Below are positions 13,059-44,653 of a DNA stretch of 51,261 bases, piece by piece; position 1 is the stretch's first letter, and each line of letters starts with the position of its first letter. The position numbers and the translations under genes were made by a program. This DNA is from an uncultured Lachnospiraceae bacterium (GTDB lineage: Bacteria > Bacillota > Clostridia > Lachnospirales > Lachnospiraceae), in NCBI GenBank assembly GCA_947628955.1, contig CANRBX010000016.1, positions 1 through 51,261 of the forward strand. The letters run 5' to 3'. Below the pieces are notes generated by a model. It was given only the letters and a program-made list of their open reading frames with translations. It made no database searches and was not told the origin of the DNA.

Positions 13059-13094
13059 ATGCTTCCTCCTTATATGCAGCGAACTCTCTCGCTT

Positions 13095-29334: not shown

Positions 29335-29358
29335 TAATTCCCTCCCGCAACCTATATA

Positions 29359-29916
29359 TCACTTCATTTCTATCTGTCTGACAAAAGGGTTGATATCCAT
29401 CAAACGTTTCTCATCTATTTCCAGTTCATCTTCAATCCCTCCTGTTGGAGCACTATGCGCTCCAACTATTTGGAATCCTACTCTCATATCATTTACATGA
29501 GCGGCAATGTTCTCGCGATGGACAGAACCTACTATTTTTCTTAAGCCAAGTTTTTGGAATCCAATCCACATCGCCATAACCAAACTCTTCCGACCAATTC
29601 CACAACCATTTGCTTCACTGTCTCCGATCTGAATTTTGCCCACCTCTGCTGTACTGCCATTAAAATTATATAAAGTGACACTCCCTACAATCCGATTCAA
29701 TCGTTCCGTCTCATCAATCGCAAACGTAATCTCATCCGGATTCGACAAATAATTTTCAAACCACGCCTCCTGCATCTTTGGCGTAATCTCTCCAATTGAG
29801 CGGAGAAACTGCGTCTTTGAAGCATCATTTCTCCACACGCGCAATTTCTCTATATCATCTTTCACCAGTGGACGTATCCTGACATTCTCAAAAACCGCTT
29901 CATAATTATGGTCCAT
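29359..29916 (-). CDS. GNAT-family N-acyltransferase
   Basis: A 185-residue GNAT (RimJ/PseH-like). N-terminal VRIRPLVKDDIEKLRVWRND followed by ITPKMQEAWFENYL is the pattern of GNATs that acylate amino-sugar nucleotides, and the acyl-CoA loop is visible as GCGIGRKSLVMAM. I infer transfer of an acyl group to the amine of a 3-amino-3,6-dideoxyhexose made by the FdtA/FdtB-like pair of the same operon. With the adjacent thiolase and reductase, 3-hydroxybutyryl is the favoured acyl group. The start at 29916 or 29919 is favoured because GGAGG lies just before it; the ATG at 29928 lacks a site. Confidence 0.8.
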   Translation of the reverse strand: MDHNYEAVFENVRIRPLVKDDIEKLRVWRNDASKTQFLRSIGEITPKMQEAWFENYLSNPDEITFAIDETERLNRIVGSVTLYNFNGSTAEVGKIQIGDSEANGCGIGRKSLVMAMWIGFQKLGLRKIVGSVHRENIAAHVNDMRVGFQIVGAHSAPTGGIEDELEIDEKRLMDINPFVRQIEMK

Positions 29917-29931
29917 CATGTCCTCCATCTT

Positions 29932-30429
29932 TTATTTATTTCTAAATGCCCACAATTTATTTAAAAGAAAATTCAATGGTATCGTTATCAATAAATTAAC
30001 AAGAGGGGCAATAACCTTCGACCAGCCCAAGACGTTCACCTGAAAATATAGCAAAATATTATTCAAAACCAGGCCTGTCCCTGCATAGGCAACAAACGTC
30101 CTGCAAAAGCTTTTCCATAGATTTCTTTGCGTCGTATCGTCAGCAGCAAAAACATATTTATTGTTCCAGTAAAATGAATGAATGACGCTAACGACAAATC
30201 CCAGAATACTTGCCGCCAGATAATATAGCCCCACAGAAATACCTATTACATATGTCAGATATGAAATAAGCGTGTTAGATGCCCCAACTATTCCAAATTT
30301 CACAAACTGCATAAAGGATGCAAACACCTCATCCGGCAGCTCTCTGCCGATCACATGGAACACTGCGCCTAATACTCCATGGGCGATTTTTTCAATAAAA
30401 TTCCACAGGGCTTTCGCTATTTTATCCAT
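29932..30429 (-). CDS. GtrA-family membrane protein
   Basis: A 165-residue protein with four membrane helices (from about residue 40: FVKFGIVGASNTLISYLTY; then NKYVF; and the final PLNFLLNKLWAFRNK), the standard GtrA layout. GtrA proteins are thought to flip undecaprenyl-phosphate-linked monosaccharides across the membrane and usually work with a GtrB-type glycosyltransferase; two such transferases are in this operon. The N-terminal ~35 residues precede the typical start of the family and form an amphipathic stretch. Confidence 0.88.
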   Translation of the reverse strand: MDKIAKALWNFIEKIAHGVLGAVFHVIGRELPDEVFASFMQFVKFGIVGASNTLISYLTYVIGISVGLYYLAASILGFVVSVIHSFYWNNKYVFAADDTTQRNLWKSFCRTFVAYAGTGLVLNNILLYFQVNVLGWSKVIAPLVNLLITIPLNFLLNKLWAFRNK

Positions 30430-30454: not shown

Positions 30455-31519
30455 TTATATATTCAGGAACTCTTTTATCTGGCACTCCATACAGGATACT
30501 ACATCTCCTCCGTCCAGATATATCCTGTACCACTCCACAATTTTCTCCATCGCAGCCGGCACATTCCAGCGAGGCTTCCATCCGAACACGGATTTTATTC
30601 TGGAGCAGTCCAGTTTCAGGAAGTTCGCCTCATGAGGACCGCCATCATGGACATTTTTCCATGCCACATCCATACCCGTCGCCTGATTCCACTTTTCGCA
30701 GAACAGATCCACCAGAGCGCCAGTCGTCCAGCAGTCCGTATCGTCCGGTCCCACATTATAGCTTGCTGCCAGGGCCATGTCTTCATACTGCCGCTGTGCA
30801 ATCATCAGATACGCAGCCACAGGTTCCAGAACATGCTGATACGGCCTTGTTGAATACGGATTGCGAACGATGATCTCCCTTCCATCGCGAACTGCCCGGA
30901 AACAGTCCGGAATAATCCGGTCATTTGCGAAATCACCCCCGCCCAACACGTTTCCTGCACGCGCAGTAGAGATCGCCACATCTCTGTCCAGGAAAAAAGA
31001 ATTCCTGTAACTGCCGGTTACAAGCTCCGAACAGGATTTGGAATTCGAGTACGGATCATATCCGTTCAGCTCCTCATTCTCCCGGTATCCCCACGCCCAT
31101 TCTCTGTTCAGATATACCTTATCCGTCGTTACATTGACAAAAGATTTTACTGAATCCGACAGGCGAATACATTCCAGTATATTCACTGTCCCCATAACAT
31201 TCACATCATATGTGTACACCGGATCCCTGTATGCATCCCGCACGATCGGCTGTGCCGCCATGTGGATTACAATCTCCGGCCGTACCGCCTCAAATAATGT
31301 CTTCAGCTTTTTCAGATCCCGAATATCACCAATCACAGAATTCATCTGTTCCGATAAGCCGCACAGGTCGAAAAGGCCCGGATCCGTCGGCGGTTCCAGA
31401 GCATATCCCGTCACATCCGCTCCGGCATCGGTCAGCAGCTTGCACATCCAGCTTCCCTTAAATCCAGTGTGTCCTGTAATCAGCACTTTCCTTCCATTCC
31501 AAAACTCTCTGTTAAACAT
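30455..31519 (-). CDS. rfbG: CDP-glucose 4,6-dehydratase
   Basis: A 354-residue extended SDR that converts CDP-glucose to CDP-4-dehydro-6-deoxyglucose. Characteristic segments: KVLITGHTGFKGSW, HMAAQPIVRDAYRDP, TTDKVYLNREWAWGYRE, PYSNSKSCSEL (YxxxK) and RAGNVLGGGDFANDRIIPD. With rfbF and rfbH in the same operon it forms the first three steps toward CDP-3,6-dideoxyhexoses. The start at 31519 (MFNREFWNGR) has GGAGAG 7-8 nt upstream; an in-frame ATG at 31534 is weaker. Confidence 0.95.
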   Translation of the reverse strand: MFNREFWNGRKVLITGHTGFKGSWMCKLLTDAGADVTGYALEPPTDPGLFDLCGLSEQMNSVIGDIRDLKKLKTLFEAVRPEIVIHMAAQPIVRDAYRDPVYTYDVNVMGTVNILECIRLSDSVKSFVNVTTDKVYLNREWAWGYRENEELNGYDPYSNSKSCSELVTGSYRNSFFLDRDVAISTARAGNVLGGGDFANDRIIPDCFRAVRDGREIIVRNPYSTRPYQHVLEPVAAYLMIAQRQYEDMALAASYNVGPDDTDCWTTGALVDLFCEKWNQATGMDVAWKNVHDGGPHEANFLKLDCSRIKSVFGWKPRWNVPAAMEKIVEWYRIYLDGGDVVSCMECQIKEFLNI

Positions 31520-31637
31520 AAGTTTTCTCTCCATCAGCTTTTCTCAATATCATGTCTCTTTATATATCTGCGTCCTCCGCCGCAGAGCGGCGTCATAGTC
31601 ACGTTCCCGTTCCGGGTTTTCATAGAATGCCCTGCTT

Positions 31638-32558
31638 TCAGAGATCAGAATTTTCTGCCCATGCAATTGTCCTGCGGATTCCTTCCTCAAACTCCGTCTC
31701 CGGGCAAAATCCCGTATCCTCCTGCAGTTCCCGTATATCAGCACACAGATACATCACTTGATTCTCTGTATAAGGAATTGCTCCCAGTTTTAACGGTAAA
31801 GATGGATCTACTGCATCACGCAGCTGTGTGATATATTCTGCCAGCTGCCGCGTCTTTCCGCTCCCGAGACAGTAGACCGCTCCGTCCTTCCCGCGTTCTC
31901 CTATCAGCTGCATCGCTCTGGCAGCATCCCCGCTGTACAGATAATCCCACTGCTGCTCCCCCTTTGTAAACTCCGGAACCTCGCCGCGCAGAAGCTTCCT
32001 GATCGTAGAAATGACCATTGTCTTCTCCCCGTCATACGGTCCATATACACTGAGGATCCTTGTCCAGATATGCCGCATTCCAAGCTGTCTGCACAGGATT
32101 CTCGTCATCTGACCGGCACACAATTTCGCAATCCCATACCCATTTTCCGGAAAGACCGGGGTTTCTGCCGACAGGCGGCCATGCACACGCCCATACTCAG
32201 CCTGTGAGCCGGCGCCTACAAACGTATGGCATCCAAGACGCGCCGCAAGCCTGACTGCCTCCAGAGCATATCCGATATTTTCATGCTGCAGCCTCATATC
32301 ATTTCTCGCATCACCGATCGTCCCATTCCAGGCCAGATGGTAAAATACATCATAGCTTTTCCGGGAATCCTCCGGCATGAAATCTGCATATTCATCCAGA
32401 CTCAGCTCCAGAATTCTGGCAAGCGGCGAAGCCGGAATCCTGCTGACCCTTCTGGAGCCTCTGTGACAGATAACCAGAATCTCATATCCTTTATTAATAC
32501 ACTGCTCAACCAGGGCAATTCCGATTGCACCAGTCGCCCCTGATATGACAACCCGCAT
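31638..32558 (-). CDS. NAD-dependent epimerase/reductase for a CDP-keto-deoxysugar
   Basis: A 306-residue extended SDR: VVISGATGAIG cofactor loop, YHLAWNGT, VGAGSQAEYG and NGYGIAKLCAG (YxxxK), then RILSVYGPYDG. It resembles the CDP-abequose/paratose synthase (RfbJ/RfbS) type and YerF-like reductases that reduce the 4-keto or branched-keto group of CDP-3,6-dideoxyhexoses. The neighbouring rfbG and the distal rfbF and rfbH support a CDP-linked substrate. Which product it makes depends on whether the TPP enzyme acts before it. The start at 32558 has AGGAGAGG upstream. Confidence 0.8.
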   Translation of the reverse strand: MRVVISGATGAIGIALVEQCINKGYEILVICHRGSRRVSRIPASPLARILELSLDEYADFMPEDSRKSYDVFYHLAWNGTIGDARNDMRLQHENIGYALEAVRLAARLGCHTFVGAGSQAEYGRVHGRLSAETPVFPENGYGIAKLCAGQMTRILCRQLGMRHIWTRILSVYGPYDGEKTMVISTIRKLLRGEVPEFTKGEQQWDYLYSGDAARAMQLIGERGKDGAVYCLGSGKTRQLAEYITQLRDAVDPSLPLKLGAIPYTENQVMYLCADIRELQEDTGFCPETEFEEGIRRTIAWAENSDL

Positions 32559-32583
32559 TTTTATTTTGTCCTCTCCTGTGAAT

Positions 32584-33516
32584 CTAAAAATTAATCCGTT
32601 CCTCTTCAATCACCAGCGGCCGGTTCATAACTCTCTGATTGATACTGCTCACATATTCTCCGATAAATCCGATAAAGAAAAGCTGCAGCGATCCCAGCAT
32701 AAACATTCCGATCAGCACCGGGGCCATTCCCGCAGCGAAACGATCCCACCAGATCAGCTTAAAAATCAGATATAATATACCAAAGAAAGCACTCAGGAAA
32801 CCGCAGAACATCCCTATAAATGTGCAAAGCCTCAATCCGATCTTCGTATATGAAGTAACGCTCAGCATTGCCGCATCATAAAGACTGTAAAAATTATTTT
32901 TGCTTTTTCCCGCCCTGCGCTTTGGCTGCTCATAAGGGATCTCTTTTCTCTTGTAACCTAATTCTGCAACAATCCCCCGCAGAAACGGAGTCGGATCTTT
33001 CAGTTCGCGGAGAACCTGAATAAAATCCTTATCATATAGTCCAGAACCTGTAAAATGTTCGATCTGCTCTATATCCGAAAATTTTTTCACCAGATGATAG
33101 TACAGACTTCTCAGGCCATACATAATCCGGCTCTCCTGGCTGCTGGTCTTAATGCCGATCACAATCTTGTAGCCCTTTTCCCATTCGGCAACATATTGAG
33201 GAATCAATTCGACCGGATCCTGGAAATCACAGACCATCGTAATCGTGCAGTCTCCGGTTGTCTGCAGCATTCCATAATACGGAGAATTAAACTGTCCGAA
33301 ATTCTTAGCATTAAATATCGCTTTTATCCTCGGATTCTGTGCGCAAATCTGTCTGAGTTTCTCTCGAGTAGTATCCTTAGAGTCATTATCAATAAAAATC
33401 AGTTCATAATCATAAGAAGACAATTCTTTTTCAAATATATCAGTTATCGCCTCACTCATAGGGATAACATTATCCTCTTCATTATAACAGGGAATCAATA
33501 CACTGATCTTTTTCAT
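32584..33516 (-). CDS. GT2 polyisoprenyl-phosphate glycosyltransferase (GtrB-like)
   Basis: A 310-residue family 2 transferase with ISVLIPCYNEEDNV at the N-terminus, the DxD-region segment MVCDFQDPVEL, and two C-terminal membrane helices (TFIGMFCGFLSAFFGILYL and the LIGMFMLGSLQLFFIGFIG segment). This architecture is that of GtrB/Dpm1-type enzymes that load a sugar onto undecaprenyl phosphate at the cytoplasmic face. The ATG shares one base with the stop of the TPP-enzyme gene (TGATG). The sugar could be the CDP-derived product of the neighbouring genes. Confidence 0.88.
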   Translation of the reverse strand: MKKISVLIPCYNEEDNVIPMSEAITDIFEKELSSYDYELIFIDNDSKDTTREKLRQICAQNPRIKAIFNAKNFGQFNSPYYGMLQTTGDCTITMVCDFQDPVELIPQYVAEWEKGYKIVIGIKTSSQESRIMYGLRSLYYHLVKKFSDIEQIEHFTGSGLYDKDFIQVLRELKDPTPFLRGIVAELGYKRKEIPYEQPKRRAGKSKNNFYSLYDAAMLSVTSYTKIGLRLCTFIGMFCGFLSAFFGILYLIFKLIWWDRFAAGMAPVLIGMFMLGSLQLFFIGFIGEYVSSINQRVMNRPLVIEEERINF

Positions 33517-35321
33517 CAAAACACCCTCTTATTCTCCTCATATTCCTCACGCGGCAGAAATGGAAACATATCATCAATCTCCGGCGAGACAATCCGTCCG
33601 TCCGGCAAGACCTTCGAAGACAGCTTCGGAGCGAAGTTCTGTGTTTCGTCCAGAATTACTTCACACAGAACCGGACCCTCGACAGCTTTTATTTCCCGTA
33701 TTACATCCAAAATATGTTCTGCATCATCAATTCTCCTGTAGGGAAGATTAAAACCATATGCAATACGTTCAAAATCAGGAAAACTCAGCCCATTTCCATC
33801 GCATACACCAACCAGCGGCCGATCTTTGAACAGATTTGTCTGTGTCTGCCGGATAGAATGGTATCCATTATTATTCAAAATAAAAAGCTTGATATTCAAA
33901 TGATTATAAACCACTGTCTGGAGTTCCTGCATGTTCATCATAAAGCTTCCGTCACCATCCAGGCAAATCGTAATTTCATTGCCTGATGCGACATCAGCTC
34001 CTATGGCTGCCGGAAATCCATATCCCATCGCCGCACATCCTGAATTAGTAAACAGGCGCTGTCCTTTCTTCAGCTTCAGGGCCTGAAAAGAAATCACACA
34101 GGCACTTCCATTACCACAGATTATCTTATCCCCTTCATCCAGCGCTTCCGATAGTTTCGACATGAATACATATGGATTAATCGGTGTTTTGTTGTTATAA
34201 TACTCAGGCAGAGTCGCAGGATATCTTCCATTTATATTCCTGGCCCAATCTAACCATTCTGGTTTTCCTGTAATCAGGCCCTGTGCTTCTATTTGCAGGT
34301 TTAAATCATGCATCACATCTGCCACGTTCGCCCAGACAGGAAAATCAACATGAACCGTCGGTTTTTCCAATTCTGCCCTATCAATATCAACAACAATTTT
34401 ATACGCATACGGGGCAAATTCTTTATAATTATAGCTTATCTGGCGAATATTCAGCCTGCATCCAAGCACCAGAAGCAAATCGCTGTTTTGTACCACAAAA
34501 TTTCCGCCGCGTGTTCCTACCGTACCGGGACGACCGCAGAACAACGGATGCTCATCCCACAGCAAATCGTGAGCATTCCAGGCTGTAACAACCGGTATAT
34601 TCAATTTTTCTATTAATCTGAGGAATTCATCATATGCCCCGGATAATCTGATCCCTGTTCCTGCAAAGACGACAGGTCTTTCCGCTTCTGCTATTTTAGA
34701 TAAAATTATCTGGGAATCGGACGGATTATATACCGGGCATTCTCCTGCTGATAATTCCGCCGTATCAAAAGAGCACAATTTCTCTGTCTCCACAACCGCT
34801 GCCTGCACATCCAACGGTATATCCAGCCAGACCGGGCCGCCCCGGCCATTCTGACATAACCACCAGGCTTTTTCCAAATGATAACGTATTGAATCCGGGT
34901 CGGTAACCATATATGCATATTTAGTCATCGTTTTAACACAGTCTACAATTTGGAATTCCTGATCCCCAAGCTGGCGCAGCGGCACATTCGTCGACCATGT
35001 AGTCGTTTCCCGTTTGACCTGTCCGGAAATTATAAACATTGGAATAGAATCAAGCCATCCGCCGAGGACTCCTGTGATCGCATTTGTTCCGCCGGGCCCA
35101 CTGGTCACGCATATGGATGCAACTCTGCCGCTCAGTCTGGCGTAAGCCTCCGCCGCTATTGCACACGCCTGTTCATGGTGATTATAAATGCTCTCCAGGC
35201 CCTCTTTATGCCCCAATGCATCATTCAAATGCATTGCCCCGCCGCCGGTCACTGTAAAATTATGGGTCACACCATGTGCCACTAAAAAGTCAGCTATATA
35301 CTCTGCAACTTTTTTTTTCAT
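33516..35321 (-). CDS. Thiamine-diphosphate-dependent enzyme, acetolactate synthase/YerE-like
   Basis: A 601-residue ThDP enzyme of the acetolactate synthase superfamily. The cofactor-activating Glu (E50, HHEQACAIAAEAYAR), SGPGGTNAITGV, and the C-terminal ThDP motif ICLDGDGSFMMN...NNNGY are all present. Size and domain order match catalytic subunits, but a branched-chain amino acid role is unlikely in this position. In yersiniose synthesis, YerE, a relative, transfers a two-carbon unit from pyruvate to C4 of CDP-3,6-dideoxy-hexos-4-ulose. A similar C-branching step is inferred here because rfbF/G/H provide exactly that acceptor. GGGAGG precedes the start. Confidence 0.85.
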   Translation of the reverse strand: MKKKVAEYIADFLVAHGVTHNFTVTGGGAMHLNDALGHKEGLESIYNHHEQACAIAAEAYARLSGRVASICVTSGPGGTNAITGVLGGWLDSIPMFIISGQVKRETTTWSTNVPLRQLGDQEFQIVDCVKTMTKYAYMVTDPDSIRYHLEKAWWLCQNGRGGPVWLDIPLDVQAAVVETEKLCSFDTAELSAGECPVYNPSDSQIILSKIAEAERPVVFAGTGIRLSGAYDEFLRLIEKLNIPVVTAWNAHDLLWDEHPLFCGRPGTVGTRGGNFVVQNSDLLLVLGCRLNIRQISYNYKEFAPYAYKIVVDIDRAELEKPTVHVDFPVWANVADVMHDLNLQIEAQGLITGKPEWLDWARNINGRYPATLPEYYNNKTPINPYVFMSKLSEALDEGDKIICGNGSACVISFQALKLKKGQRLFTNSGCAAMGYGFPAAIGADVASGNEITICLDGDGSFMMNMQELQTVVYNHLNIKLFILNNNGYHSIRQTQTNLFKDRPLVGVCDGNGLSFPDFERIAYGFNLPYRRIDDAEHILDVIREIKAVEGPVLCEVILDETQNFAPKLSSKVLPDGRIVSPEIDDMFPFLPREEYEENKRVF

Positions 35322-35332
35322 TGTCAGCCTCC

Positions 35333-35995
35333 CTATTCCTTCTCAAAAAACTGTACTATATCCATCGGAGTTTCTGCATAGCCAATCGCTCCAAACTGCA
35401 TAACATCTTGCTGTGATTTAAAATCAAATCCATAGGTAACACCTAAAAAAGGCATCTGCATCTGCTGTGCACCCACTGCGTCATGCGAACTGTCGCCGAT
35501 CATAACTGCCTGCCTGAAATCATGGCACCCCAAATCTTCCATGCATTTTCTTATGATATCTGCTTTTTTTAACTTATTATAAAAATCGGCACCATATATT
35601 ATGTCAGAATAATGATCAAATTTAAAATGCTTCATAATTGCCTCTGCATAATCCTGACGTTTATAAGTAGCAATCGCTATCTTTACTCCGAGCTTTGCGA
35701 TCCTGTCCATTGCCTCATAAATCCCGTCATAAGGCGAGGCCAGAAACAGGTATTCATTTTTATAATGATTCCGAAAACAATCTGCAAGCTCCTGAAGAAC
35801 CGCCCCACTAAGACCATAAACTCTGGCAAATGAGTCATGGATCGGCGGGCCGATAAATGTAAGCAGTTGATCCTCCCTCAATGGAGCAAGGCCCTTATCC
35901 TGTATTGTCCGTTTTACTGAAGCAATCACTCCTTCCGTAGTATCCAGCAATGTGCCATCCACATCAAATACAGCAATTTTATACTTATCATTCAT
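35333..35995 (-). CDS. HAD-superfamily phosphatase (phosphoglycolate phosphatase-like)
   Basis: A 220-residue HAD hydrolase with the nucleophile motif FDVDGTLLDT, the helical cap, IAIATYKR (motif II), the Lys of motif III near LKKADIIRKC, and MIGDSSHDAVGA (motif IV). It probably removes a phosphate from a small sugar or acid phosphate. It lies 3 nt after the aldolase gene and 11 nt before the ThDP-enzyme gene, so it probably belongs to the same biosynthetic step series; its substrate is unknown. Confidence 0.82.
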   Translation of the reverse strand: MNDKYKIAVFDVDGTLLDTTEGVIASVKRTIQDKGLAPLREDQLLTFIGPPIHDSFARVYGLSGAVLQELADCFRNHYKNEYLFLASPYDGIYEAMDRIAKLGVKIAIATYKRQDYAEAIMKHFKFDHYSDIIYGADFYNKLKKADIIRKCMEDLGCHDFRQAVMIGDSSHDAVGAQQMQMPFLGVTYGFDFKSQQDVMQFGAIGYAETPMDIVQFFEKE

Positions 35996-35998
35996 TCT

Positions 35999-37615
35999 TC
36001 AACTTATCTCGCTTTCTGTATAAAAACTATCCGTAATAAATTCAACCTGTAATTGCTCTGCCACACTCTTTAAATACGTCCTGACATATCCGTTCAGATA
36101 ATCCGCCTGCCGTCTGGAAAACCAGTATTCCATCCTTGGATTATAATAATTACATTCTGTCTGCGAATAGCCATCCAGCCCTGCGCAGGCAGCACTGTCA
36201 ATTTTCAGCATCACAAGTACCTTCAGCAGCATCACGAATGAATTATCTACAATCTTTGCTTCCTGATCCAAAAGCCTGCCATTATTCAGCGTAAACTGAA
36301 AGCTTCCGCCCTTTGTCCTTGTCACATTCGAAGTTGCGATTATCCTGACATTACTGTTCTTACACTCACGCAGTGCATTATTTACACAATTATACCTTCT
36401 GCTGTTGCAGAGAAATACATAATCCACGTGAAAAGCGCCCGGAATATAATTTATGGATATCACAGTCGGATGCTCACAGTCAATATAGTCCCTGACACGC
36501 TGTTCCTGAAGCTGAATATTCTTTCCGGGGCCGAGTATCAATAATTTCTTCTCCGACAGTTCCTGCCGCAAATGCTCCAGGTCAGCCCTGTCGTCGCACT
36601 CTGTTCTCTGATATTGAAAATACAGTTCTTCAATATGCTTCTGGCTGTACAACAGTCTTTTCTCATACTCAATCTCACTCAGGATCTCATTAATCGATTT
36701 GACCGACAATGTATGCTTGTCCATCAGGAACTTCACATAGTTCGGATGGCAGTTATTAGACGCAGCAAGATAATAAAACAAGTTATAACCCCACGGGCTT
36801 TTCTTGTATTCCTGCATAATATTCCCGTCAATTGCCTCGAGGATCTGACTGATGTCATAATTTTTTCCGTATTGCTCGTTCAGATGCATCGCCAGAAGTT
36901 CAATCGGAGTGTTTCCGGCGCTCTTTCCCATTCCATACAGCGTTGCATCCACAACAACTGCATGTCTGGCATTTGCCTTCAGCATTTCAATACAGTTGGC
37001 GTATCCAAGCTGAAAATTATTATGAGAATGATAACCAATCTGGATTTCCGGCAGCACGTGTTCATCAAGCATTTCATAATAATGCATCAGGCTGTTCTGG
37101 TGCAGAAGGCCATATGTATCTACCATTGACACTGCAAACGGCCTGAGATCATTGACGAGGCCGATCAGCTCCATCAATTCACCGTCAGAATAGCTGGTAA
37201 TCGAAACAAGCTGCACAAACACCTTGTAACCCAGTTCCTTTACCTGGCGGCAAAAATCAATCGCCTCGTGCATGATATGTTTCTTAAAAATCACCCGTAT
37301 CCCATCAAGGTAACTGTCCTCACATCGTGTAAGATGGCTTATTCCGCAGGTTCCATAGTCGATCATGCCTACTACCATAGCCCGCTTTGCATCTACACTG
37401 CCATAAATTTTGCGCACACAATCCGTATCCGGCATAATGCTGCGGTTGATATCAAAGTCTCTTCTCTCATCCAGAAAACCGATCTCAATGATATCGACAT
37501 TACTGCTCACAAGCCGCTCAAACATACTGATCAGGTTTTCATGGCCGAACTCCCAGTCGTTCACATATCCGCCGTCGCGCAATGTGCAGTCAAGCAGACT
37601 GATTCTTTTTTCCAT
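35999..37615 (-). CDS. DRE-TIM (HMG-CoA lyase-like) aldolase with extra C-terminal domain
   Basis: A 538-residue protein. Residues 1-~300 are an HMGL-like/4-hydroxy-2-oxovalerate aldolase-type barrel: LLDCTLRDGGY (R13, D14), metal-binding HSH (H196, H198) and LYGMGKSAGNTPIELL. Residues ~335-538 form an additional domain with ILGPGKNIQ, PTVISINYIP and DYVFLCNSRRY, reminiscent of a Rossmann-like glycan-biosynthesis domain, which I cannot name. The chemistry would be aldol addition or cleavage involving pyruvate. Tight packing with the ThDP enzyme, the HAD phosphatase and RfbH suggests it makes the 2-oxo acid donor, or acts on the keto-sugar itself. GAGGAGG precedes the start. Confidence 0.82.
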   Translation of the reverse strand: MEKRISLLDCTLRDGGYVNDWEFGHENLISMFERLVSSNVDIIEIGFLDERRDFDINRSIMPDTDCVRKIYGSVDAKRAMVVGMIDYGTCGISHLTRCEDSYLDGIRVIFKKHIMHEAIDFCRQVKELGYKVFVQLVSITSYSDGELMELIGLVNDLRPFAVSMVDTYGLLHQNSLMHYYEMLDEHVLPEIQIGYHSHNNFQLGYANCIEMLKANARHAVVVDATLYGMGKSAGNTPIELLAMHLNEQYGKNYDISQILEAIDGNIMQEYKKSPWGYNLFYYLAASNNCHPNYVKFLMDKHTLSVKSINEILSEIEYEKRLLYSQKHIEELYFQYQRTECDDRADLEHLRQELSEKKLLILGPGKNIQLQEQRVRDYIDCEHPTVISINYIPGAFHVDYVFLCNSRRYNCVNNALRECKNSNVRIIATSNVTRTKGGSFQFTLNNGRLLDQEAKIVDNSFVMLLKVLVMLKIDSAACAGLDGYSQTECNYYNPRMEYWFSRRQADYLNGYVRTYLKSVAEQLQVEFITDSFYTESEIS

Positions 37616-37624
37616 AAGCCCTCC

Positions 37625-38965
37625 TCAGGCATTCACCGCCTCAATAATGACTCTTGCCATATAATCTATCATTTCGTCTGTCATTCCCGGATAAACTCCT
37701 ACCCAGAAAGTGTCGTTCATAATACGGTCAGTATTTTTCAGATCACCGATAATGCGATATCCTCTTCCCTGTGCCCGCATCTGGTCAAAGCAGGGGTGCT
37801 TTGTAAGGTTTCCCGCAAAAAGCATTCGCGTCTGAACGCCATGTTTCTCCACATAATCCACTATCCTGCCGCGCTGTACCCCTTCCCTGCATGTAAGCAG
37901 GAATCCAAACCAGCTTGGCTGCGAATTTTCGCATGCCACCGGAAGAATCAGTCTGTCTTCTGCAGGCTTCAGCGCATTCAGCAGCCGTTCAAAATTATGG
38001 CGCCTGCGTTCCACAAACGAAGGGAACTTCTCGATCTGGGCACATCCGATTGCTGCCTGCATGTCCGTTGCTTTCAAATTATAGCCAAAATGAGAATAAA
38101 CATATTTGTGATCATAGCCTAAGGGAAGCTCCCCATACTGCCGGTCAAATCTGTGGCCACACAGATTGTCCTGTCCGGACGCACATACGCAGTCCCTGCC
38201 CCAGTCACGGAAGGAGCGAATGCACCTGTTCAGAAGCGGATTATTCGTATACACTGCACCTCCCTCACCCATCGTCATATGATGAGGCGGATAAAAACTG
38301 GATGTCCCGATATCTCCGACCGTGCCTGTAAACTTTTCCTCACCGTCAATTACATATTTCGTGCCGAGTGCATCACAGTTATCCTCAATCAGCCACAGAT
38401 TATGCCTGTCGCAGAATTCTCTGACTGCAGCCAGATCAAAAGGATTGCCCAGTGTATGCGCAGCCATCACCAGCTTTGTCTTATCTGACAATGCCATTTC
38501 CAATTGTGTGACATCCAGATTATACTGGGGAATCGTCACGTCAATAAATACCGGAACCACCCCATACTGAATTGCCGGAGTTACCGTGGTCGGAAACCCG
38601 GCAGCTACTGTGATCATCTCATCCCCCGGGCGCACCTGGCGATCCCCAAGCAAAGGAGATGTAAGCGCCATGAATGCACACAGATTCGCAGAAGAACCTG
38701 AATTCACCAACGAGCAGTGTTTCACCTTAAGATAATCTGCAAATTTCTTTTCAAACTCCTTCGTATACCTTCCGGAAGTCAGCCAGAACTCCAACGCGGA
38801 ATCTACCAGATTCATCATCTCAGCTCTGTCATACACCCTGGAAGCGTACGGAATTCTCTGCCCCTCCACAAACGCCTTCTTCTGATTATGATACGTGTCG
38901 CAGTATTCTCCCACCATCTCCAGAATCTGCGTCTTTGCCTGCTGCTCCGTCATGTTCTTAAACAT
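37625..38965 (-). CDS. rfbH: CDP-4-dehydro-6-deoxyglucose 3-dehydratase
   Basis: A 446-residue PMP/[2Fe-2S] enzyme that removes the 3-OH of CDP-4-dehydro-6-deoxyglucose, together with a separate reductase. The diagnostic change from aminotransferases is present: His replaces the PLP-binding Lys in SSFYPPHHMTMGEGG (H228/H229). The iron-sulfur cysteines can be placed at C197, C259, C261 and C269 (DCVCASGQDNLCG), spaced as in Yersinia E1. AGGAGAAGG precedes the start. The partner reductase (E3/ddhD) is not in the window. The product is the 3,6-dideoxy-4-keto sugar on which C4-branching or reduction acts. Confidence 0.95.
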   Translation of the reverse strand: MFKNMTEQQAKTQILEMVGEYCDTYHNQKKAFVEGQRIPYASRVYDRAEMMNLVDSALEFWLTSGRYTKEFEKKFADYLKVKHCSLVNSGSSANLCAFMALTSPLLGDRQVRPGDEMITVAAGFPTTVTPAIQYGVVPVFIDVTIPQYNLDVTQLEMALSDKTKLVMAAHTLGNPFDLAAVREFCDRHNLWLIEDNCDALGTKYVIDGEEKFTGTVGDIGTSSFYPPHHMTMGEGGAVYTNNPLLNRCIRSFRDWGRDCVCASGQDNLCGHRFDRQYGELPLGYDHKYVYSHFGYNLKATDMQAAIGCAQIEKFPSFVERRRHNFERLLNALKPAEDRLILPVACENSQPSWFGFLLTCREGVQRGRIVDYVEKHGVQTRMLFAGNLTKHPCFDQMRAQGRGYRIIGDLKNTDRIMNDTFWVGVYPGMTDEMIDYMARVIIEAVNA

Positions 38966-39022
38966 TATCCTTCTCCTTTCACCTCTTTTATCCCAAATCT
39001 CATCGTCAAAAGCTTCTCTGTA

Positions 39023-40087
39023 CTATTCGGTTTCCTTCAAAACGCAGTGTACTATCTTTCCGCAATAGCGAACAACACTAACTCCTGCTACCGGCAAAAT
39101 AACCATTCCCCAGAAAACAATCCCTCTTCTCAGCCATATATTACTATTTAATACAGGGAATAAATTCAGCAGCACATCCCTTACCAGAAGATGATACATA
39201 AATGTATATAAAGTATTTTTTCCAAGAAGAGTTATCATATTAACTAATTTTTCCAGCCAGCTGACCTGTATGTTGCTGACCATTGTAAACACGGAAAACA
39301 GAAGAAACAGCGTGATGAGCGCATACACCATAAGCTCTATGCTGGGCGGATTCAGGCCATCCCCCCAATAGGCCAGCATCCATTTGTCAAATGGTAATCT
39401 TCCATATAGCCTCAGCCGCAGCCAGACACCCCAGATACAGCCTGCAAGCCCAGCACACGTCAAATATTCCCACAGCTTTTTTAAATGCAGAACTCTGCTG
39501 TTCGATAATATGATGCCCATATAAAACAGCAATAAATAAGTTCCTCCAAAAAGATACTGACCGCCTCCATAAACAGGGAGGATGTATGTCTTTTGTATAA
39601 AAACATAAGAAAAATATCCCAGAGCAAGCAAACTGGCAGCGTGCCATACCGCGGCATATTTCTGTTTTATACAAAATTTATACCAGCTCAGCAGGAAAGG
39701 TGATATCAGCATAATCTGCAAAAAGAAAAGTAAATAATAAAATGGCGGCTGAATATCGAAGCTAATTATATGGTTAACGTACGTTCTTAAATCCAGACAT
39801 CCCGAATAATACGCTTGTATTATCAAAGTTGCTGCTGCGTATTGGCCAAACAGTCTTCCACATTTTTTCAGCTGATATGTATAGGGCTTTCGGCGCTGAC
39901 AGGACAGCCCGGCCGAAATTCCGGATAATAATATAAACAGGCTCACAGAAAAATAGGTCGTCTGCGCAAATAATTGATCATTATAACAAAAACCACAGCA
40001 ATGATTCACGACAACTGCAATGATTGCTATAGCCTTTGCACAATCGATCCATTTTATCCTGCCTGATACAGTATTCCTTTCTCTCAT
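39023..40087 (-). CDS. Acyltransferase-3 family membrane protein
   Basis: A 354-residue integral membrane protein with about ten helices, starting IKWIDCAKAIAIIAVVVNHCC, the acyltransferase-3 entry motif with the conserved His (VNHC). Proteins of this family O-acetylate or O-acylate surface polysaccharides or lipids on the outer face. GGAGAG precedes the start. One of three such genes in the operon, so the glycan is probably acylated at several places. Confidence 0.82.
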   Translation of the reverse strand: MRERNTVSGRIKWIDCAKAIAIIAVVVNHCCGFCYNDQLFAQTTYFSVSLFILLSGISAGLSCQRRKPYTYQLKKCGRLFGQYAAATLIIQAYYSGCLDLRTYVNHIISFDIQPPFYYLLFFLQIMLISPFLLSWYKFCIKQKYAAVWHAASLLALGYFSYVFIQKTYILPVYGGGQYLFGGTYLLLFYMGIILSNSRVLHLKKLWEYLTCAGLAGCIWGVWLRLRLYGRLPFDKWMLAYWGDGLNPPSIELMVYALITLFLLFSVFTMVSNIQVSWLEKLVNMITLLGKNTLYTFMYHLLVRDVLLNLFPVLNSNIWLRRGIVFWGMVILPVAGVSVVRYCGKIVHCVLKETE

Positions 40088-40105
40088 ATTCTCTCCGTAT
40101 TTTAA

Positions 40106-41203
40106 TCAGACATAAAATTCATTCAGGCTGTCAATTACATATTGCTGTTCTTCTTCTGTCATCCCATTATAAAGCGGTAAAGAAAGTACCTCATCTGCAA
40201 ACCGCTCTGTAATTGGAAGTGCTCCGCGCTGTATATTCAGATATCTGTATGCCTCTGAGAGGTGCGGAGGGATCGGGTAATGAATAGTCGTCCCAATTTC
40301 CCGTTCATTTAAATACTCTATTAATTTATCCCGCGCTCCACAATGAATCACATACTGGTGCCATACTGTCGTGGCTCCTTCTCGAATCTCGGGTAATTTT
40401 ATTACAGGATTAGTCAACTGCTCAGAATAAGTTCTGCATAACCTTCTTCTTTCTTCCGTGAGATCATGCAAATGTGTCAGGCGTACTCTCAAAAGACCGG
40501 CCTGCAGTTCATCTAATCTGGAGTTTGCTCCGACAACTTTATTATAGTATCTTTTCTCACTGCCATAATTCCGAAAAATTCTAACGGCTTCTGCGATCGC
40601 CGCGTCATCTGTCACTATGGCTCCCGCATCTCCAAAAGCACCCAGGTTTTTGGATGGATAAAACGAAAAACATCCAATATCGCCAAATGTACCCGTCATT
40701 TTACCATTAAAGGACGCCCCGTGCGACTGAGCACAGTCCTCCACAAGACGCAGATTATATTTTCGGGCCAGTTCCACAATCGGTGCCATATTAGAAGCCT
40801 GTCCATATAAATGAACGACCAGAATGGCTTTTGTCTTACTGGTTATCTTCTCTTCTATTTTGGATGCATCGATATTATTGTATTCATCCGGTTCAACAAA
40901 AACCGGTGTAGCCCCATTTATTGTGATCCCCATCACGCTTGCAATGTACGTATTTCCCTGCACAATTACTTCATCACCAGGCCCGATCTTCAGTACACGA
41001 AAAGCTATCCACAATGCATCCAGTCCGCTGGCCAAACCCACACAATATTTTGAGCTCAGATATTGCGCAAATTCTTCTTCAAATGATCGGACTTCTTTTC
41101 CCAAAATATACCAGCCCGATCTAAGCACCTGAAGGGCTTTCTCTTCGTATTCTTTCTGATACATTTCAAATCCGCGGTCCATGCGGTTCGGCATTATCTT
41201 CAT
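40106..41203 (-). CDS. DegT-family 3-keto sugar aminotransferase (FdtB/QdtB-like)
   Basis: A 365-residue PLP aminotransferase of the sugar-nucleotide type. PLP-binding Lys is K185 (SFYPSKNLGAFGDAG), with the conserved DCAQSHGA before it. The closest pattern I recall is FdtB/QdtB, which aminates dTDP-3-dehydro-6-deoxyhexose to dTDP-3-amino-3,6-dideoxyhexose (Fuc3N or Qui3N). A FdtA-like ketoisomerase two genes upstream supports this. The start at 41203 with AGGAGAGG lies inside the end of the upstream transferase gene (38-bp overlap). RmlA and RmlB are expected elsewhere. Confidence 0.88.
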   Translation of the reverse strand: MKIMPNRMDRGFEMYQKEYEEKALQVLRSGWYILGKEVRSFEEEFAQYLSSKYCVGLASGLDALWIAFRVLKIGPGDEVIVQGNTYIASVMGITINGATPVFVEPDEYNNIDASKIEEKITSKTKAILVVHLYGQASNMAPIVELARKYNLRLVEDCAQSHGASFNGKMTGTFGDIGCFSFYPSKNLGAFGDAGAIVTDDAAIAEAVRIFRNYGSEKRYYNKVVGANSRLDELQAGLLRVRLTHLHDLTEERRRLCRTYSEQLTNPVIKLPEIREGATTVWHQYVIHCGARDKLIEYLNEREIGTTIHYPIPPHLSEAYRYLNIQRGALPITERFADEVLSLPLYNGMTEEEQQYVIDSLNEFYV

Positions 41204-42155
41204 CGCTTTGCCTCTCCTTTTCTTCTTTTCCGACAATCTGATTCTCATTTTCTATAATGTAAGTCGGCCGGTTTCTTGAAGCATCAAATGTACGCCAAAG
41301 GTATCCGCCCAAAATGCCAAGCGTCATCATAATTACCCCAAAGCTAAACAGATTGAAAATAAACAGAGTTGTCCAGCCATTTACCTGAATCATCCCCATA
41401 AGCTTAAATATAAAAACAATTATCCCCCATATTACCGCTCCCACAATTGATATCGTTCCAACTATGGATACCAGCGTGATGGGAAAGGTTGAAAAACTAA
41501 ATAATGTGTCTGACACAAGGCGGATTTTCTTTCTCAAAGTCCATTTGCTGGTACCTATCTCACGTGCCAATCTGACATATGGTATCTGTTCCGTCTTAAA
41601 ACCACTCCAGAGTATTTGTCCCGTTAACGCGCTATTCCTTTCATCCAGAGCCAGCAGCACCCGGATCACTTTCCGATCCAGCAAATATACATCAAAGCCT
41701 CCCTTGGGCATATTGGCAAGCGCTGTCTTTCTGACCATCCAGTAATACATATTAGCAAACAGTCTCTGGTTAAATTTTTCCTCACGTCCCTGTCTTACAG
41801 CCAAAACAACATTATTCCCTCTTTTCCAGCTTTCTACCATCTCCAGGATTAATTCCGTAGGCTCCTGCAAATCTGCAGCCTTAATCACCGCACAGTCCCC
41901 TGTACATTTTTCCAGTCCACATAAAATTGCAGCATGCGAACCGAAATTGCGGGAAAGGCTGACAATTTTTATATTAGAATCCAGAGCTGTCAGCTCTTTC
42001 ATCACATCATAGCTCTTATCTTTCGACCCGTCATTTACCATGACTATTTCATAATCACAATCAATCACCGCAATAAATTTCTTCCGGATGTCCTCATAAA
42101 GCAGGCGAAGGTTGTCCTCATTATAGTACACTGGTATCACAATCGATATTTTCAT
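41166..42155 (-). CDS. GT2 polyisoprenyl-phosphate glycosyltransferase (GtrB-like), second copy
   Basis: A 329-residue family 2 transferase: ISIVIPVYYNEDNLR, MVNDGSKDKSYD, AADLQEPTELI, then two C-terminal helices and a charged tail. Same architecture as the transferase at 32584-33516 but clearly divergent in sequence, so probably a different sugar donor. The start overlaps the FdtA-like stop (ATGA), and its end overlaps the aminotransferase start by 38 bp. This tight coupling suggests it handles the amino-deoxyhexose. Confidence 0.88.
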   Translation of the reverse strand: MKISIVIPVYYNEDNLRLLYEDIRKKFIAVIDCDYEIVMVNDGSKDKSYDVMKELTALDSNIKIVSLSRNFGSHAAILCGLEKCTGDCAVIKAADLQEPTELILEMVESWKRGNNVVLAVRQGREEKFNQRLFANMYYWMVRKTALANMPKGGFDVYLLDRKVIRVLLALDERNSALTGQILWSGFKTEQIPYVRLAREIGTSKWTLRKKIRLVSDTLFSFSTFPITLVSIVGTISIVGAVIWGIIVFIFKLMGMIQVNGWTTLFIFNLFSFGVIMMTLGILGGYLWRTFDASRNRPTYIIENENQIVGKEEKERQSDEDNAEPHGPRI

Positions 42156-42592
42156 AATTGTATTTCCCCAGCTTTCACTTTTTCTGCCACTATTTTTTCA
42201 AAATGATCATAATCCCTGATGTACTCATCGGGATCATAATGTTCGCTCGCCAGCACTAAAAGCACAGAATCAGCGCTGAAATCATACATATCTTTCCATA
42301 CCATCCTTGGCAGATAAATTCCCGTGTGCGGACGATTCAGAGAAAATACCGCTTCATTTCCCAGACCATCTTTCACTCTTACTTTACTTTTCCCTGCAAC
42401 ATTTATAAGTACGAACTCACTTCGCAAATTCGCATGCTGTCCTCTGACCACGCAGGCGTCGGATCCATAAATGTAAAAAATACGCTTTATATCAAAAGGA
42501 ATATCCTGTGCTCCTTCTACAATCACCAGGTGTCCCCGCTCATCGCCATGCTGCGGAAATTCCAGCATGTGTACACTAGTTTTCAGATTCAT
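42152..42592 (-). CDS. FdtA-like sugar 3,4-ketoisomerase (WxcM-type cupin)
   Basis: A 146-residue cupin of the FdtA/QdtA/WxcM family: RIFYIYGSDACVVRGQHANL, then EFVLINVAGKSKVKV-like and YLPRMVWKDMYDFS. The family isomerises dTDP-4-dehydro-6-deoxyglucose to the 3-keto form used by FdtB. The first active-site His is present (H53), but the second position of the usual HAH motif is Asn (HAN), so catalysis may differ. The start at 42592 overlaps the upstream stop (ATGA) and has GGAGGTGG. An upstream ATG at 42685 lies inside the preceding gene and is not favoured. Confidence 0.82.
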   Translation of the reverse strand: MNLKTSVHMLEFPQHGDERGHLVIVEGAQDIPFDIKRIFYIYGSDACVVRGQHANLRSEFVLINVAGKSKVRVKDGLGNEAVFSLNRPHTGIYLPRMVWKDMYDFSADSVLLVLASEHYDPDEYIRDYDHFEKIVAEKVKAGEIQL

Positions 42593-43827
42593 CTGTCCAC
42601 CTCCAGTTCTTTCACCTGATTTCTGTGCCGCAGATAGCCCTTCAATTCGCCCGCCGATACACAAACCGCTTCTATAATGAGACAAATATACATAACCATG
42701 CCAACAGTATTTGCAACCCTTGGCTGTGTCAGTATCAAAGGGCCAACATGAATTTCATACTGCAGCGGTGTCAGCATCAATATAAATCCAAAACCATACA
42801 GCCAATCTTTCCAATTGTAATCTGAATCCAAAAATAAAACAACTGGATAAAAAAGATAAAGCAGGGAATAAAAGCCTTGTTGGCTTGTCACATAAATAAT
42901 CGCCAACGATATCATCAATATTTTTTTCCAGTTCTCTTTCAGGCGCCAGGCCAATAATACCGCTGCGGCACTTAAAAAATATGGAAGCATATTATGAATC
43001 TTTAATCCATCAGAAATAATGTTGGGGGCCAGTAATCCTAAGTCCTCAATCACTTTCATTGTGGTGTACTGCCGCATAGCTTTAACAAATAATGAAAAAT
43101 TTTGTACCGCTCCGCCCTCCAGCCAGAAAAAAGGAAGAAAGGCAGCCATTATCCCATAAAGTATAGTAACAAATGCATCTTTGTATCTCTTTTTATATAA
43201 AAGCAGCACACCAAAAACTGCAGGATATATCTTCATCGCTGCTGATATGGCAAGACATATAAAACCTATATGGTTTAATACCCTTCTTTTCGAATCGTAC
43301 GTCATCAAAAATACGCACAACAAGGCAACTGCTAAAATCAATTCATTGGCCCTGTCAAAGCTAAAGATTGTCACACCTGATACAAAAAGTGCCAGTAAAA
43401 CGCCTAATTTTTCAAATTCAGTCCCTTTGCTCTTTTTATATAAGCAATAGAACAGGCTTCCAAAGGAAATCACCAAAAAAACGCCTACGGCGATTCCTGA
43501 CAATTGACTGTACCTCGCAACATACGCTGTAAGACCGTCATTAATATCATACGGATATAAAAATGAAAATGGATATAAGATCAAATAGGAAATCGGAAGG
43601 TAGTTCCTTGCCGGAATAAATCCCCACGAATAAGGATTTCTCCCAACAGAAAAATAAACAACATTATAGAAATCCATAAACCAGTCATTTGCATTCTCAA
43701 AAAAAATATTTCTCTGCATACCATCGACATCTGAAAGAAATAAATATATCCATAATATAAAACCGAAAAAACTTGCCAGAATAAATACATGTTTAATTAT
43801 TTTTTTCTTATTACACCTATTGCGCAT
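42589..43827 (-). CDS. GT-C/GT87-like mannosyltransferase-type membrane protein
   Basis: A 412-residue protein with about 10 helices. The first extracytoplasmic loop carries the acidic/aromatic MDFYNVVYFSVGRNPYSWGF stretch, and AMKIYPAVFGVLLLYKKRYKDA is the segment that GT87/DUF2029 proteins share. Such GT-C enzymes transfer a sugar from a polyprenyl-phosphate donor on the outer face. It fits as acceptor-side partner of the GtrB-GtrA system. GAGAGG precedes the start. Confidence 0.75.
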   Translation of the reverse strand: MRNRCNKKKIIKHVFILASFFGFILWIYLFLSDVDGMQRNIFFENANDWFMDFYNVVYFSVGRNPYSWGFIPARNYLPISYLILYPFSFLYPYDINDGLTAYVARYSQLSGIAVGVFLVISFGSLFYCLYKKSKGTEFEKLGVLLALFVSGVTIFSFDRANELILAVALLCVFLMTYDSKRRVLNHIGFICLAISAAMKIYPAVFGVLLLYKKRYKDAFVTILYGIMAAFLPFFWLEGGAVQNFSLFVKAMRQYTTMKVIEDLGLLAPNIISDGLKIHNMLPYFLSAAAVLLAWRLKENWKKILMISLAIIYVTSQQGFYSLLYLFYPVVLFLDSDYNWKDWLYGFGFILMLTPLQYEIHVGPLILTQPRVANTVGMVMYICLIIEAVCVSAGELKGYLRHRNQVKELEVDR

Positions 43828-43879
43828 GCAAAATCCTCTCTTTGTCCTTCACTTTCATGAAATAACAATACTTTCCTTC

Positions 43880-44653
43880 TTACCAAACTTTCCATGGCGC
43901 TTTCCCGCTATTCCACAAAGCCTCCAGCTTTTCCATCTCTCGTTTTGTATCCATGCATTGCCAGAATCCATTATGTTTGTAAGCTTTCAATTCTCCCATT
44001 GCAGAAACATATTCAAGCGGTTCTTTCTCAAAAACTGTTGAATCTCCTTCAATGATATCAAAAATCGCAGGCTCCAACACCATAAAGCCGGCATTAATAC
44101 GGCTCCCATCGCCCTCCGATTTTTCCCGAAAACTCAAAATCGTATCCTTTTCATCAATACCCAGAACTCCGAATCGCTGTGCGACTGTAACTGCCGAAAG
44201 AGTTGCAGTTCTTCCATGGGATTTGTGGAATTTTAAAAGATCCGATATATTAATATCTGATACCGCATCACCATACGTCAGCATAAAAGTTTCATTTCCC
44301 ACATATTTCTGTACACGTTTTACCCTGCCGCCGGTCATCGTATTCAACCCGGTATCTACAAGAGTCACCTTCCATGGCTCCGCTTCACTGCTGTGAACTG
44401 TCATCTCATTCCCATTGGCAAAGTCAAACGTTACATCACAGTTATAAAGATAATAATCCGCAAACCATTCCTTAATAATATGCTGCTTATATCCACAGCA
44501 GATAATAAACTCATTAAACCCGTAAAACGAATATTGTTTCATAATATGCCAGAGAATTGGTTTTCCTCCAATCTCTATCATTGGTTTCGGCTTTAAATGA
44601 CTTTCCTCACTGATACGGGTACCAAAGCCGCCTGCCAGAATAATTACTTTCAT
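43880..44653 (-). CDS. rfbF: Glucose-1-phosphate cytidylyltransferase
   Basis: A 257-residue nucleotidyltransferase that makes CDP-glucose from glucose 1-phosphate and CTP. The N-terminal VIILAGGFGTRISEESHLKP is the RfbF form of the nucleotide-binding loop. IGGKPILWHIMKQYS, LTYGDAVSDINI and INAGFMVLEP complete the pattern. Full length. AAGGAG precedes the start. It supplies RfbG and RfbH of the same operon. Confidence 0.96.
   Translation of the reverse strand: MKVIILAGGFGTRISEESHLKPKPMIEIGGKPILWHIMKQYSFYGFNEFIICCGYKQHIIKEWFADYYLYNCDVTFDFANGNEMTVHSSEAEPWKVTLVDTGLNTMTGGRVKRVQKYVGNETFMLTYGDAVSDINISDLLKFHKSHGRTATLSAVTVAQRFGVLGIDEKDTILSFREKSEGDGSRINAGFMVLEPAIFDIIEGDSTVFEKEPLEYVSAMGELKAYKHNGFWQCMDTKREMEKLEALWNSGKAPWKVW

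Follow-up and report, generated by a model that had tools for sequence, protein, structure and literature searches.

A putative aldolase-carboligase route to a 4-C-branched CDP-3,6-dideoxyhexose in a Lachnospiraceae gene cluster

The window analysed here is a stretch of 51,261 nucleotides on contig 16 (CANRBX010000016.1) of the 3.5 Mb, 136-contig genome of an uncultured Lachnospiraceae bacterium, and it contains a gene cluster for sugars linked to cytidine diphosphate (CDP). All genes of the cluster lie on the minus strand, in the order RfbF, a GT87-type glycosyltransferase, FdtA, GtrB, FdtB, an acyltransferase, RfbH, a DRE-TIM (HMGL-like) aldolase that we call ALDO, a HAD phosphatase, a thiamine diphosphate (ThDP) enzyme, a second GtrB, a member of the NAD-dependent epimerase/reductase family, RfbG and GtrA. 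An earlier note on this DNA had described the core genes as clustered and tightly packed, which is confirmed by the intergenic distances of 9 nt between RfbH and ALDO, 3 nt between ALDO and HAD, 11 nt between HAD and ThDP, and -4 nt (a 4-nt overlap) between ThDP and the second GtrB. We propose, with a probability of about 0.7 and on the basis of sequence comparison, that the cluster encodes a CDP-sugar pathway producing a 3,6-dideoxyhexose with a long, hydroxylated branch at C4.

Three genes score above the cut-offs of their models and are expected to start the pathway: RfbF, the glucose-1-phosphate cytidylyltransferase (43880..44653; TIGR02623, 394.8 bits, cut-off 300.25), RfbG, the CDP-glucose 4,6-dehydratase (30455..31534; TIGR02622, 438.2 bits, cut-off 278.45), and RfbH, the CDP-6-deoxy-4-keto-glucose 3-dehydratase (37625..38965; NF011936, 713.3 bits, cut-off 423). 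Downstream of RfbH follow ALDO (538 residues, 35999..37615; PF00682), the phosphoglycolate-phosphatase-like HAD protein (35333..35995; PF13419) and a YerE/JanthE-like ThDP carboligase (33516..35321; PF02776/PF00205/PF02775). The second GtrB, a GT2 glycosyltransferase (32584..33519; PF00535), probably transfers the completed sugar to undecaprenyl phosphate, with the GtrA-type membrane protein (29932..30429; PF04138) as the probable partner of GtrB. The epimerase/reductase family protein (31638..32558; PF01370), for which the best start by eye is the ATG at 32558 with GGAGAGG upstream and not the TTG at 32609, is the proposed reductase of the branch ketone.

The domains and motifs of the ThDP enzyme, its similarity and its context of deoxy-keto-sugar nucleotide genes place it among the YerE-like sugar-branching enzymes. 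Its closest solved relative is 8rph (JanthE, 406 bits), followed by an acetohydroxyacid synthase (AHAS, 248 bits), so that of the two kinds of enzyme to which the earlier note had likened it, YerE and acetolactate synthase, it lies nearer the former. A profile of five relatives likewise ranks JanthE (577 bits) above 5ahk (422 bits), deposited as an acetolactate synthase and which we take to be PpYerE, and E. coli AHAS I (386 bits). The ThDP enzyme does not reach the cut-off of any AHAS model in the 25 matches listed out of 54 (acolac_lg, 341.4 bits against 538.35). A plasmid search with it returned 23 records, all below 60% identity, and the annotated ones are acetolactate synthases.

In an alignment of 68 rows, one from the window and 67 from the set of 71 ThDP-type loci described below, Glu50, Gly456, Gly458 and Asn484 are present throughout and Asp457 in 66 rows, corresponding to the catalytic Glu and the GDG-N motif. 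Thr493 (Thr in 65 of the 68 rows) occupies the position of the AHAS Trp, a residue that presumably has a role in the acceptor site. A second AHAS-like enzyme in the same genome, on contig 76, retains the Trp and adjoins genes read by eye as leuB and ilvD. Because of the Thr in place of Trp, the proximity to JanthE and the presence of the AHAS-like enzyme on contig 76, the ThDP enzyme of the window is probably not an enzyme of branched-chain amino-acid synthesis. According to the excerpted text of PMC12188165, JanthE is YerE-like, uses donors ranging from pyruvate to 4-methyl-2-oxovalerate, and with benzaldehyde as the acceptor takes 4-hydroxy-2-oxovalerate as a donor.

ALDO consists of a barrel (residues ~1-330) and a Rossmann-like domain (~345-538). 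The DRE-type Arg/Asp motif, the HxH metal ligands and the match to the TIM-barrel fold assign it to the DRE-TIM metallolyases, and the motifs LDCTLRDG and HxHNN (H196/H198) are invariant in 30 of 30 aligned rows. For the AlphaFold2 model, with a mean predicted local distance difference test score (pLDDT) of 88.7, the best fold matches point to BVU_2661 (3dxi) and to 4-hydroxy-2-oxovalerate aldolases of the DmpG type. ALDO does not qualify as a DmpG, since it scores 78.4 bits against a cut-off of 286, and it is also far below another curated aldolase cut-off (94.9 against 229 bits). A scan of 17 cluster proteins revealed no acylating aldehyde dehydrogenase.

The C-terminal domain of ALDO (194 residues, 35999-36583), modelled alone, reaches a pLDDT of 92.5. 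Its Pfam matches are found only at E values of 0.02 or higher, each in one of 30 members, and Foldseek gave no match below 1e-3, the best being SteA (E 1.3e-3, template-modelling score 0.50). The domain is present in the ALDOs of both locus types described below. Two unusual homologues were encountered. One of 1066 residues (locus L026, 6466-9666) carries a segment of glycosyltransferase 2 type in the second half and adjoins split transketolase genes and RfbH/ThDP. The other (L094, 10001-11593) lies with a HAD gene beside RfbG and RfbH in the metagenome-assembled genome of a Methanomassiliicoccaceae archaeon, and either was transferred to the archaeon or is a contaminant of the assembly.

We compared the neighbourhoods of ALDO across genomes. 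A contig scan yielded at least 533 confirmed relatives, of which the best 80 loci were retained. In addition, 391 Clostridia genomes were surveyed; 32 of them, the window's own included, have an ALDO at an E value of 1e-60 or better, and 31 neighbourhoods were taken from this set. Pooled with ten neighbourhoods from close relatives, these gave 121 loci, 115 after merging ALDOs of at least 95% identity, and 107 with an ALDO of at least 490 residues; as the loci were chosen by similarity to the window ALDO, the proportions are not population rates. For genes resembling synthetases of cytidine monophosphate (CMP)-ulosonates we used three tblastn queries, two NeuA-like and one KdsB-like, each of which matches PF02348. 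Two KdsB-like matches scored above KdsB subfamily cut-offs, and the scanned NeuA-like one was far below the PseF cut-off.

The 107 non-redundant loci with a full-length ALDO divide into 71 with a ThDP gene, 28 with a CMP-ulosonate-synthetase-like gene, none with both and 8 with neither (Fisher 6.7e-19, with related loci counted as independent). For loci with at least 5 kb on both sides the numbers are 55, 23, 0 and 3. The pairing of ALDO with ThDP thus recurs in 71 of 107 loci, in excess of chance, and in the best-80 set the two matches are less than 1 kb apart in 55 of the 65 loci that have a ThDP match. The CDP-sugar genes track the ThDP type: among loci with the long flanks, RfbH is nearby in 37 of 55 ThDP-type and 0 of 23 CMP-type loci, the reductase in 37 of 55 and 0 of 23 (identity of at least 40%), and the second GtrB in 31 of 55 and 0 of 23 (at least 50%). 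In a quick tree of 108 ALDO rows the ThDP/CMP state switches at least five times, so the exclusion does not stem from one old split. The phyla represented include Bacillota, Spirochaetota and Fibrobacterota, and carriers of the ThDP type include Parablautia intestinalis and Lacrimispora saccharolytica An861. The nearest ALDO by identity (66%), in Robinsoniella peoriensis, is from a CMP-type locus that carries a HAD gene as well. The 37 of 55 loci bear out the earlier suggestion that aldolase and ThDP enzyme belong together as a conserved unit near rfbH. An aldolase that supplies the ThDP enzyme with a lengthened 2-oxo acid, as the earlier note had it, is consistent with the mutual exclusion of ThDP and CMP-ulosonate-synthetase-like genes.

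A control was based on RfbH and hence did not start from ALDO. RfbH was found in 36 of the 391 Clostridia genomes, own included, at an E value of 1e-110 or better, which left 35 loci outside the window. Five of these neighbourhoods have ThDP and ALDO, ten ThDP without ALDO and 20 neither, and ALDO without ThDP does not occur (p 0.009). At the genome level, ALDO is present somewhere in 12 of 35, and it sits elsewhere in 7 of the 20 genomes with a ThDP-less locus. In one genome (G385) an ALDO-HAD-ThDP-reductase-GtrB unit lies on contig 14 and RfbF/G/H on contig 5. The control and this genome suggest that ALDO is an accessory to the ThDP pathway and need not adjoin RfbH. The genomes of the ten ThDP loci without ALDO are absent from the 32 ALDO genomes of the Clostridia survey (one of the ten, G092, is only 76% complete), and these ten could be plain loci of the yersiniose type.

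In the CMP type, ALDO occupies the place expected for KdsA or NeuB. We searched 18 genomes, one of them 73% complete, behind 19 of the 28 CMP-type loci: KdsA (TIGR01362) was above cut-off in none of the 18, and PF03102 (NeuB) exceeded its low cut-off in 13. Strong NeuB matches (>200 bits) occur in two of the 18 (266 and 225 bits), both off the ALDO contig, and the remaining ones are partial (28-48 bits), mostly share their frames with KdsA matches below threshold, and are tentatively taken to be 3-deoxy-D-arabino-heptulosonate 7-phosphate synthases. At locus L127 the gene order is KdsB, ALDO, KdsC, and at L131 (1177-3459) ALDO and a KdsC-type phosphatase (TIGR01670, 109.8 bits, cut-off 106.95) form a single frame of 760 residues, a natural fusion. 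A CMP-ulosonate synthetase requires a free 3-deoxy-2-ulosonic acid and a YerE-like enzyme requires a 2-oxo acid; an aldol product of pyruvate would therefore satisfy either consumer. The window's own genome likewise has no KdsA (TIGR01362) match above cut-off. On its contig 4 (~16344-17908) a separate pair of NeuA-like and NeuB genes lies close together, and a classical route to nonulosonates that depends on phosphoenolpyruvate (PEP) probably exists in this genome besides the cluster.

The HAD protein, whose company with the aldolase the earlier note overlooked together with the additional C-terminal domain of the latter, has the DxDGT/Lys/DD set of its family, with D11, D13, K144, D168 and D172 conserved in all 63 sequences of an alignment that includes the window. 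We counted HAD genes of any of three kinds that lie on the same strand no more than 5 kb from ALDO or, in the controls, from RfbH. Such a gene accompanies ALDO in 48 of 71 ThDP-type and 22 of 28 CMP-type loci. The counts near RfbH were 0 of 20 loci without ThDP and 1 of 10 with ThDP but without ALDO, a few of these stretches being short (for instance L151 and L166). The lone exception, L152, has a NagD-type HAD and an HpcH/HpaI-type aldolase (PF03328, a weak 29.8 bits against a cut-off of 25, with no NCBIfam name), together at 12233-13851, between its ThDP and reductase genes, next to the RfbH-ThDP pathway. Here a different aldolase with a different phosphatase occupies the same position.

Loci that lack a HAD gene often carry an AroB-related sugar-phosphate phospholyase (TIGR04425, above cut-off in the one scanned member, L018). 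The 71 ThDP-type loci comprise 2 with both HAD and lyase, 46 with HAD only, 7 with lyase only and 16 with neither (p 0.004), and with long flanks the split is 2, 34, 5 and 14 (p 0.04). The existence of two unrelated routes for removing phosphate suggests that the aldol product is phosphorylated. At L018 (13341-15094), and also at L034, L048 and L056, a short-chain dehydrogenase/reductase (SDR) together with the phospholyase replaces the window-type HAD near ALDO/ThDP. We also considered ThDP position 268 as a signature of the donor, since it was the best of the scored columns (Val in 38 of 45 HAD-type and 0 of 7 lyase-type enzymes), and did not use it: the starred branches give only four independent pairs (sign test, median p 0.5), the enzymes of loci without ALDO share other pocket residues, and the JanthE paper ties Tyr268 to stabilisation of flavin adenine dinucleotide.

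We hypothesize that RfbF, RfbG and RfbH convert glucose-1-phosphate to CDP-3,6-dideoxyhexos-4-ulose, as known for their families, while ALDO would join the enol of pyruvate to an aldehyde, likeliest a sugar-phosphate aldehyde, to give a 3-deoxy-2-ulosonate phosphate. HAD would then take off the phosphate, and the ThDP enzyme would decarboxylate the free 2-oxo acid and add the acyl anion to the C4 ketone, a reaction of the type attributed to ErwE. The NAD-dependent protein would reduce the branch ketone, and GtrB/GtrA would attach the sugar to a carrier lipid that serves the glycosylation of the surface. An aldehyde of three to five carbons would yield a branch of five to seven. The branch would be a decarboxylated 3-deoxy-ulosonic acid, and the product would therefore consist of two sugars joined by a carbon-carbon bond. 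The comparative support for this pathway is strong, drawing on gene identity, conservation, the exclusion pattern and the partner genes; the substrates, the phosphate step, the order of reactions, the chain length and the destination of the sugar are predictions from the genes. That full-length ALDO represents an unrecognised, PEP-independent class of 3-deoxy-2-ulosonate (phosphate) synthases is in our view an even bet. Its products would go either to a CMP-ulosonic acid or to YerE-like decarboxylative coupling with a CDP-4-keto-sugar, and would in this cluster contribute to a carbon-linked unit of at least ten carbons, a decarboxylated ulosonic acid joined to C4 of a 3,6-dideoxyhexose, on cell surfaces in Clostridia and others.

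Several observations weigh against this pathway. ALDO is not nearby in 10 of the 15 RfbH loci with ThDP, RfbH is not nearby in 18 of the 55 long-flank ThDP-type loci, and 8 of the 107 ALDO loci have neither consumer. Two of the eight short ALDO homologues (<490 residues) that were set aside, at L025 and L137, have both consumers; relatedness among loci is ignored in the Fisher values, and the ALDO tree is a quick tree. The ThDP enzymes of the RfbH loci without ALDO share both Thr493 and Tyr297 (7 of 8 full-length enzymes) as well as Lys566 (8 of 8) with the window, two of the ten being too short for the comparison, so the ThDP enzyme alone does not point to a long donor. These enzymes would suit a plain yersiniose-type pathway, in which the branch has two carbons and comes from pyruvate while ALDO and HAD serve another residue of the same polymer. 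YerE itself takes pyruvate, according to the excerpts of PMC12247030, and ThDP without a nearby ALDO occurs in 10 of 35 RfbH loci. We regard this pathway as distinctly unlikely for the window, because ALDO and ThDP lie within 1 kb of each other in most ThDP-bearing loci of the best 80 of at least 533, because a CMP-ulosonate-synthetase-like gene is absent from all 71 ThDP-type loci, which leaves the ALDO product there without another visible user, and because RfbH neighbourhoods have ALDO only alongside ThDP (5 of 15 against 0 of 20), though 7 of those 20 genomes carry ALDO elsewhere.

The 16 of 71 ThDP-type loci with neither HAD nor lyase imply that the phosphate step is not general. They agree with a shorter, erwiniose-like route, in which ALDO uses a phosphate-free, acetaldehyde-like aldehyde to form 4-hydroxy-2-oxovalerate or a similar acid and HAD acts elsewhere. 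The nearest curated names and folds of ALDO are indeed 4-hydroxy-2-oxovalerate aldolases, and ErwE is described as accepting 4-hydroxy-2-oxo-butanoate, -pentanoate and -hexanoate (excerpts of PMC12247030). This route is nevertheless unlikely, as HAD accompanies the aldolase in both of its fates, is once fused to it and is once replaced jointly with it, as ALDO scores far below the aldolase cut-offs, and as the scanned cluster proteins include no acylating aldehyde dehydrogenase. The accidental presence of an acetolactate synthase and a citramalate/isopropylmalate-type synthase of amino-acid metabolism, an alternative raised in the earlier note, would account for the family-level likeness (341 bits to acolac_lg). 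We rejected it as highly improbable in view of the AHAS cut-offs, which are not reached among the 25 of 54 matches listed, the Thr in place of Trp, the AHAS-like enzyme with Trp beside leuB- and ilvD-like genes on contig 76, and the retention of ThDP/ALDO beside CDP-sugar genes in many genomes. The pathway with an ALDO-built, long-branch donor remains our preferred reading.

The GT87-type membrane glycosyltransferase (42589..43827; PF09594) is a possible user of the lipid-linked sugar. The homologues of FdtA (PF05523) and FdtB form a second sugar route inside the cluster (40106-42595), which continues beyond the 30455..44653 span with GtrA, a GNAT protein, a thiolase and an SDR (27402-30429). 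With the GNAT, the thiolase (TIGR01930, above cut-off) and the FabG/PhaB-like SDR at the cluster end (27402-29928), FdtA and FdtB look like a route to a 3-amino-3,6-dideoxyhexose with its own supply of 3-hydroxybutyryl-CoA for N-acylation.

The earlier interpretation is partly supported. Its conserved donor unit stands, and its claim that a long or hydroxylated branched sugar was undescribed does not, in view of ErwE and erwiniose (PMC12247030) and of caryophyllose (PMC5706390), as excerpts of these papers describe them. Long-branch chemistry is thus already known in kind, and what is new is the comparative evidence on the origin of the donor. A literature search found no HMGL-type aldolase serving YerE-like enzymes or CMP-ulosonate synthetases within a scope outside which lay the primary ErwE, JanthE and Krug 2024 papers, and, with the primary ErwE-group papers outside its scope, no ALDO-HAD donor arm, either-or relation, fusion or replacement. 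In related bacteria the aldolase-HAD pair, the apparent supplier of the side chain, is also seen to feed a very different sugar pathway, that of a CMP-ulosonate. The partner genes may allow the branch to be predicted, by a rule that distinguishes ThDP alone, ThDP with aldolase and phosphatase, and ThDP with aldolase and AroB-related lyase. If ALDO is a non-PEP ulosonate synthase, it would explain ulosonic acid in bacteria that have KdsB- and KdsC-like genes and no KdsA, and the aldolase-carboligase pair could be used for the carbon-carbon synthesis of higher sugars.

Compared with DmpG-type aldolases and BVU_2661 (3dxi), ALDO has the same DRE-TIM barrel, HxH metal motif and expected pyruvate aldol chemistry, but it differs in the added C-terminal domain, the sugar-cluster context, the lack of an aldehyde dehydrogenase partner among the scanned cluster proteins and the scores below cut-off. 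The KdsA-KdsC-KdsB route to CMP-3-deoxy-D-manno-octulosonate is approached by the sister loci, with ALDO between KdsB-like and KdsC-like genes at L127 and fused to KdsC at L131; however, ALDO does not belong to the PEP-dependent KdsA family, and the window cluster has no CMP-synthetase gene. The yersiniose pathway, of which YerF is the reductase, shares the rfbFGH-type CDP-sugar start, a ThDP carboligase and a reductase with the window. In contrast, yersiniose needs no aldolase or HAD, and the donors of YerE are limited to the transfer of a C3 chain at most (excerpts of PMC12247030).

The likeness to caryophyllose of Mycobacterium marinum (MMAR_2332) lies in the sugar structure, given in the excerpts of PMC5706390 as 3,6-dideoxy-4-C-[D-altro-1,3,4,5-tetrahydroxyhexyl]-D-xylo-hexopyranose. 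Its tetrahydroxyhexyl branch at C4 has a deoxy carbon beside the former acyl carbon, and the hydroxyl at branch C1 and the CH2 at C2 would be expected if a pyruvate aldol were transferred with decarboxylation and then reduced. It is only an idea that loss of phosphate by elimination might leave a terminal methyl group as in this sugar. Gastriose, ropiose and aurantose are named with caryophyllose as further branched sugars in the excerpts of PMC12247030. The same excerpts report that ErwE of Pectobacterium atrosepticum prefers 4-hydroxy-2-oxo-butanoate, -pentanoate or -hexanoate to pyruvate and couples 4-hydroxy-2-oxo acids to CDP-4-keto-3,6-dideoxyglucose, yielding erwiniose. As far as this description goes, the window system resembles that of ErwE in its YerE-like ThDP enzyme, its CDP-4-keto-3,6-dideoxyglucose acceptor and its expected hydroxylated 2-oxo acid donor, and differs from it in the Clostridia host and in the ALDO-HAD pair within the unit, which suggests a phosphorylated intermediate.

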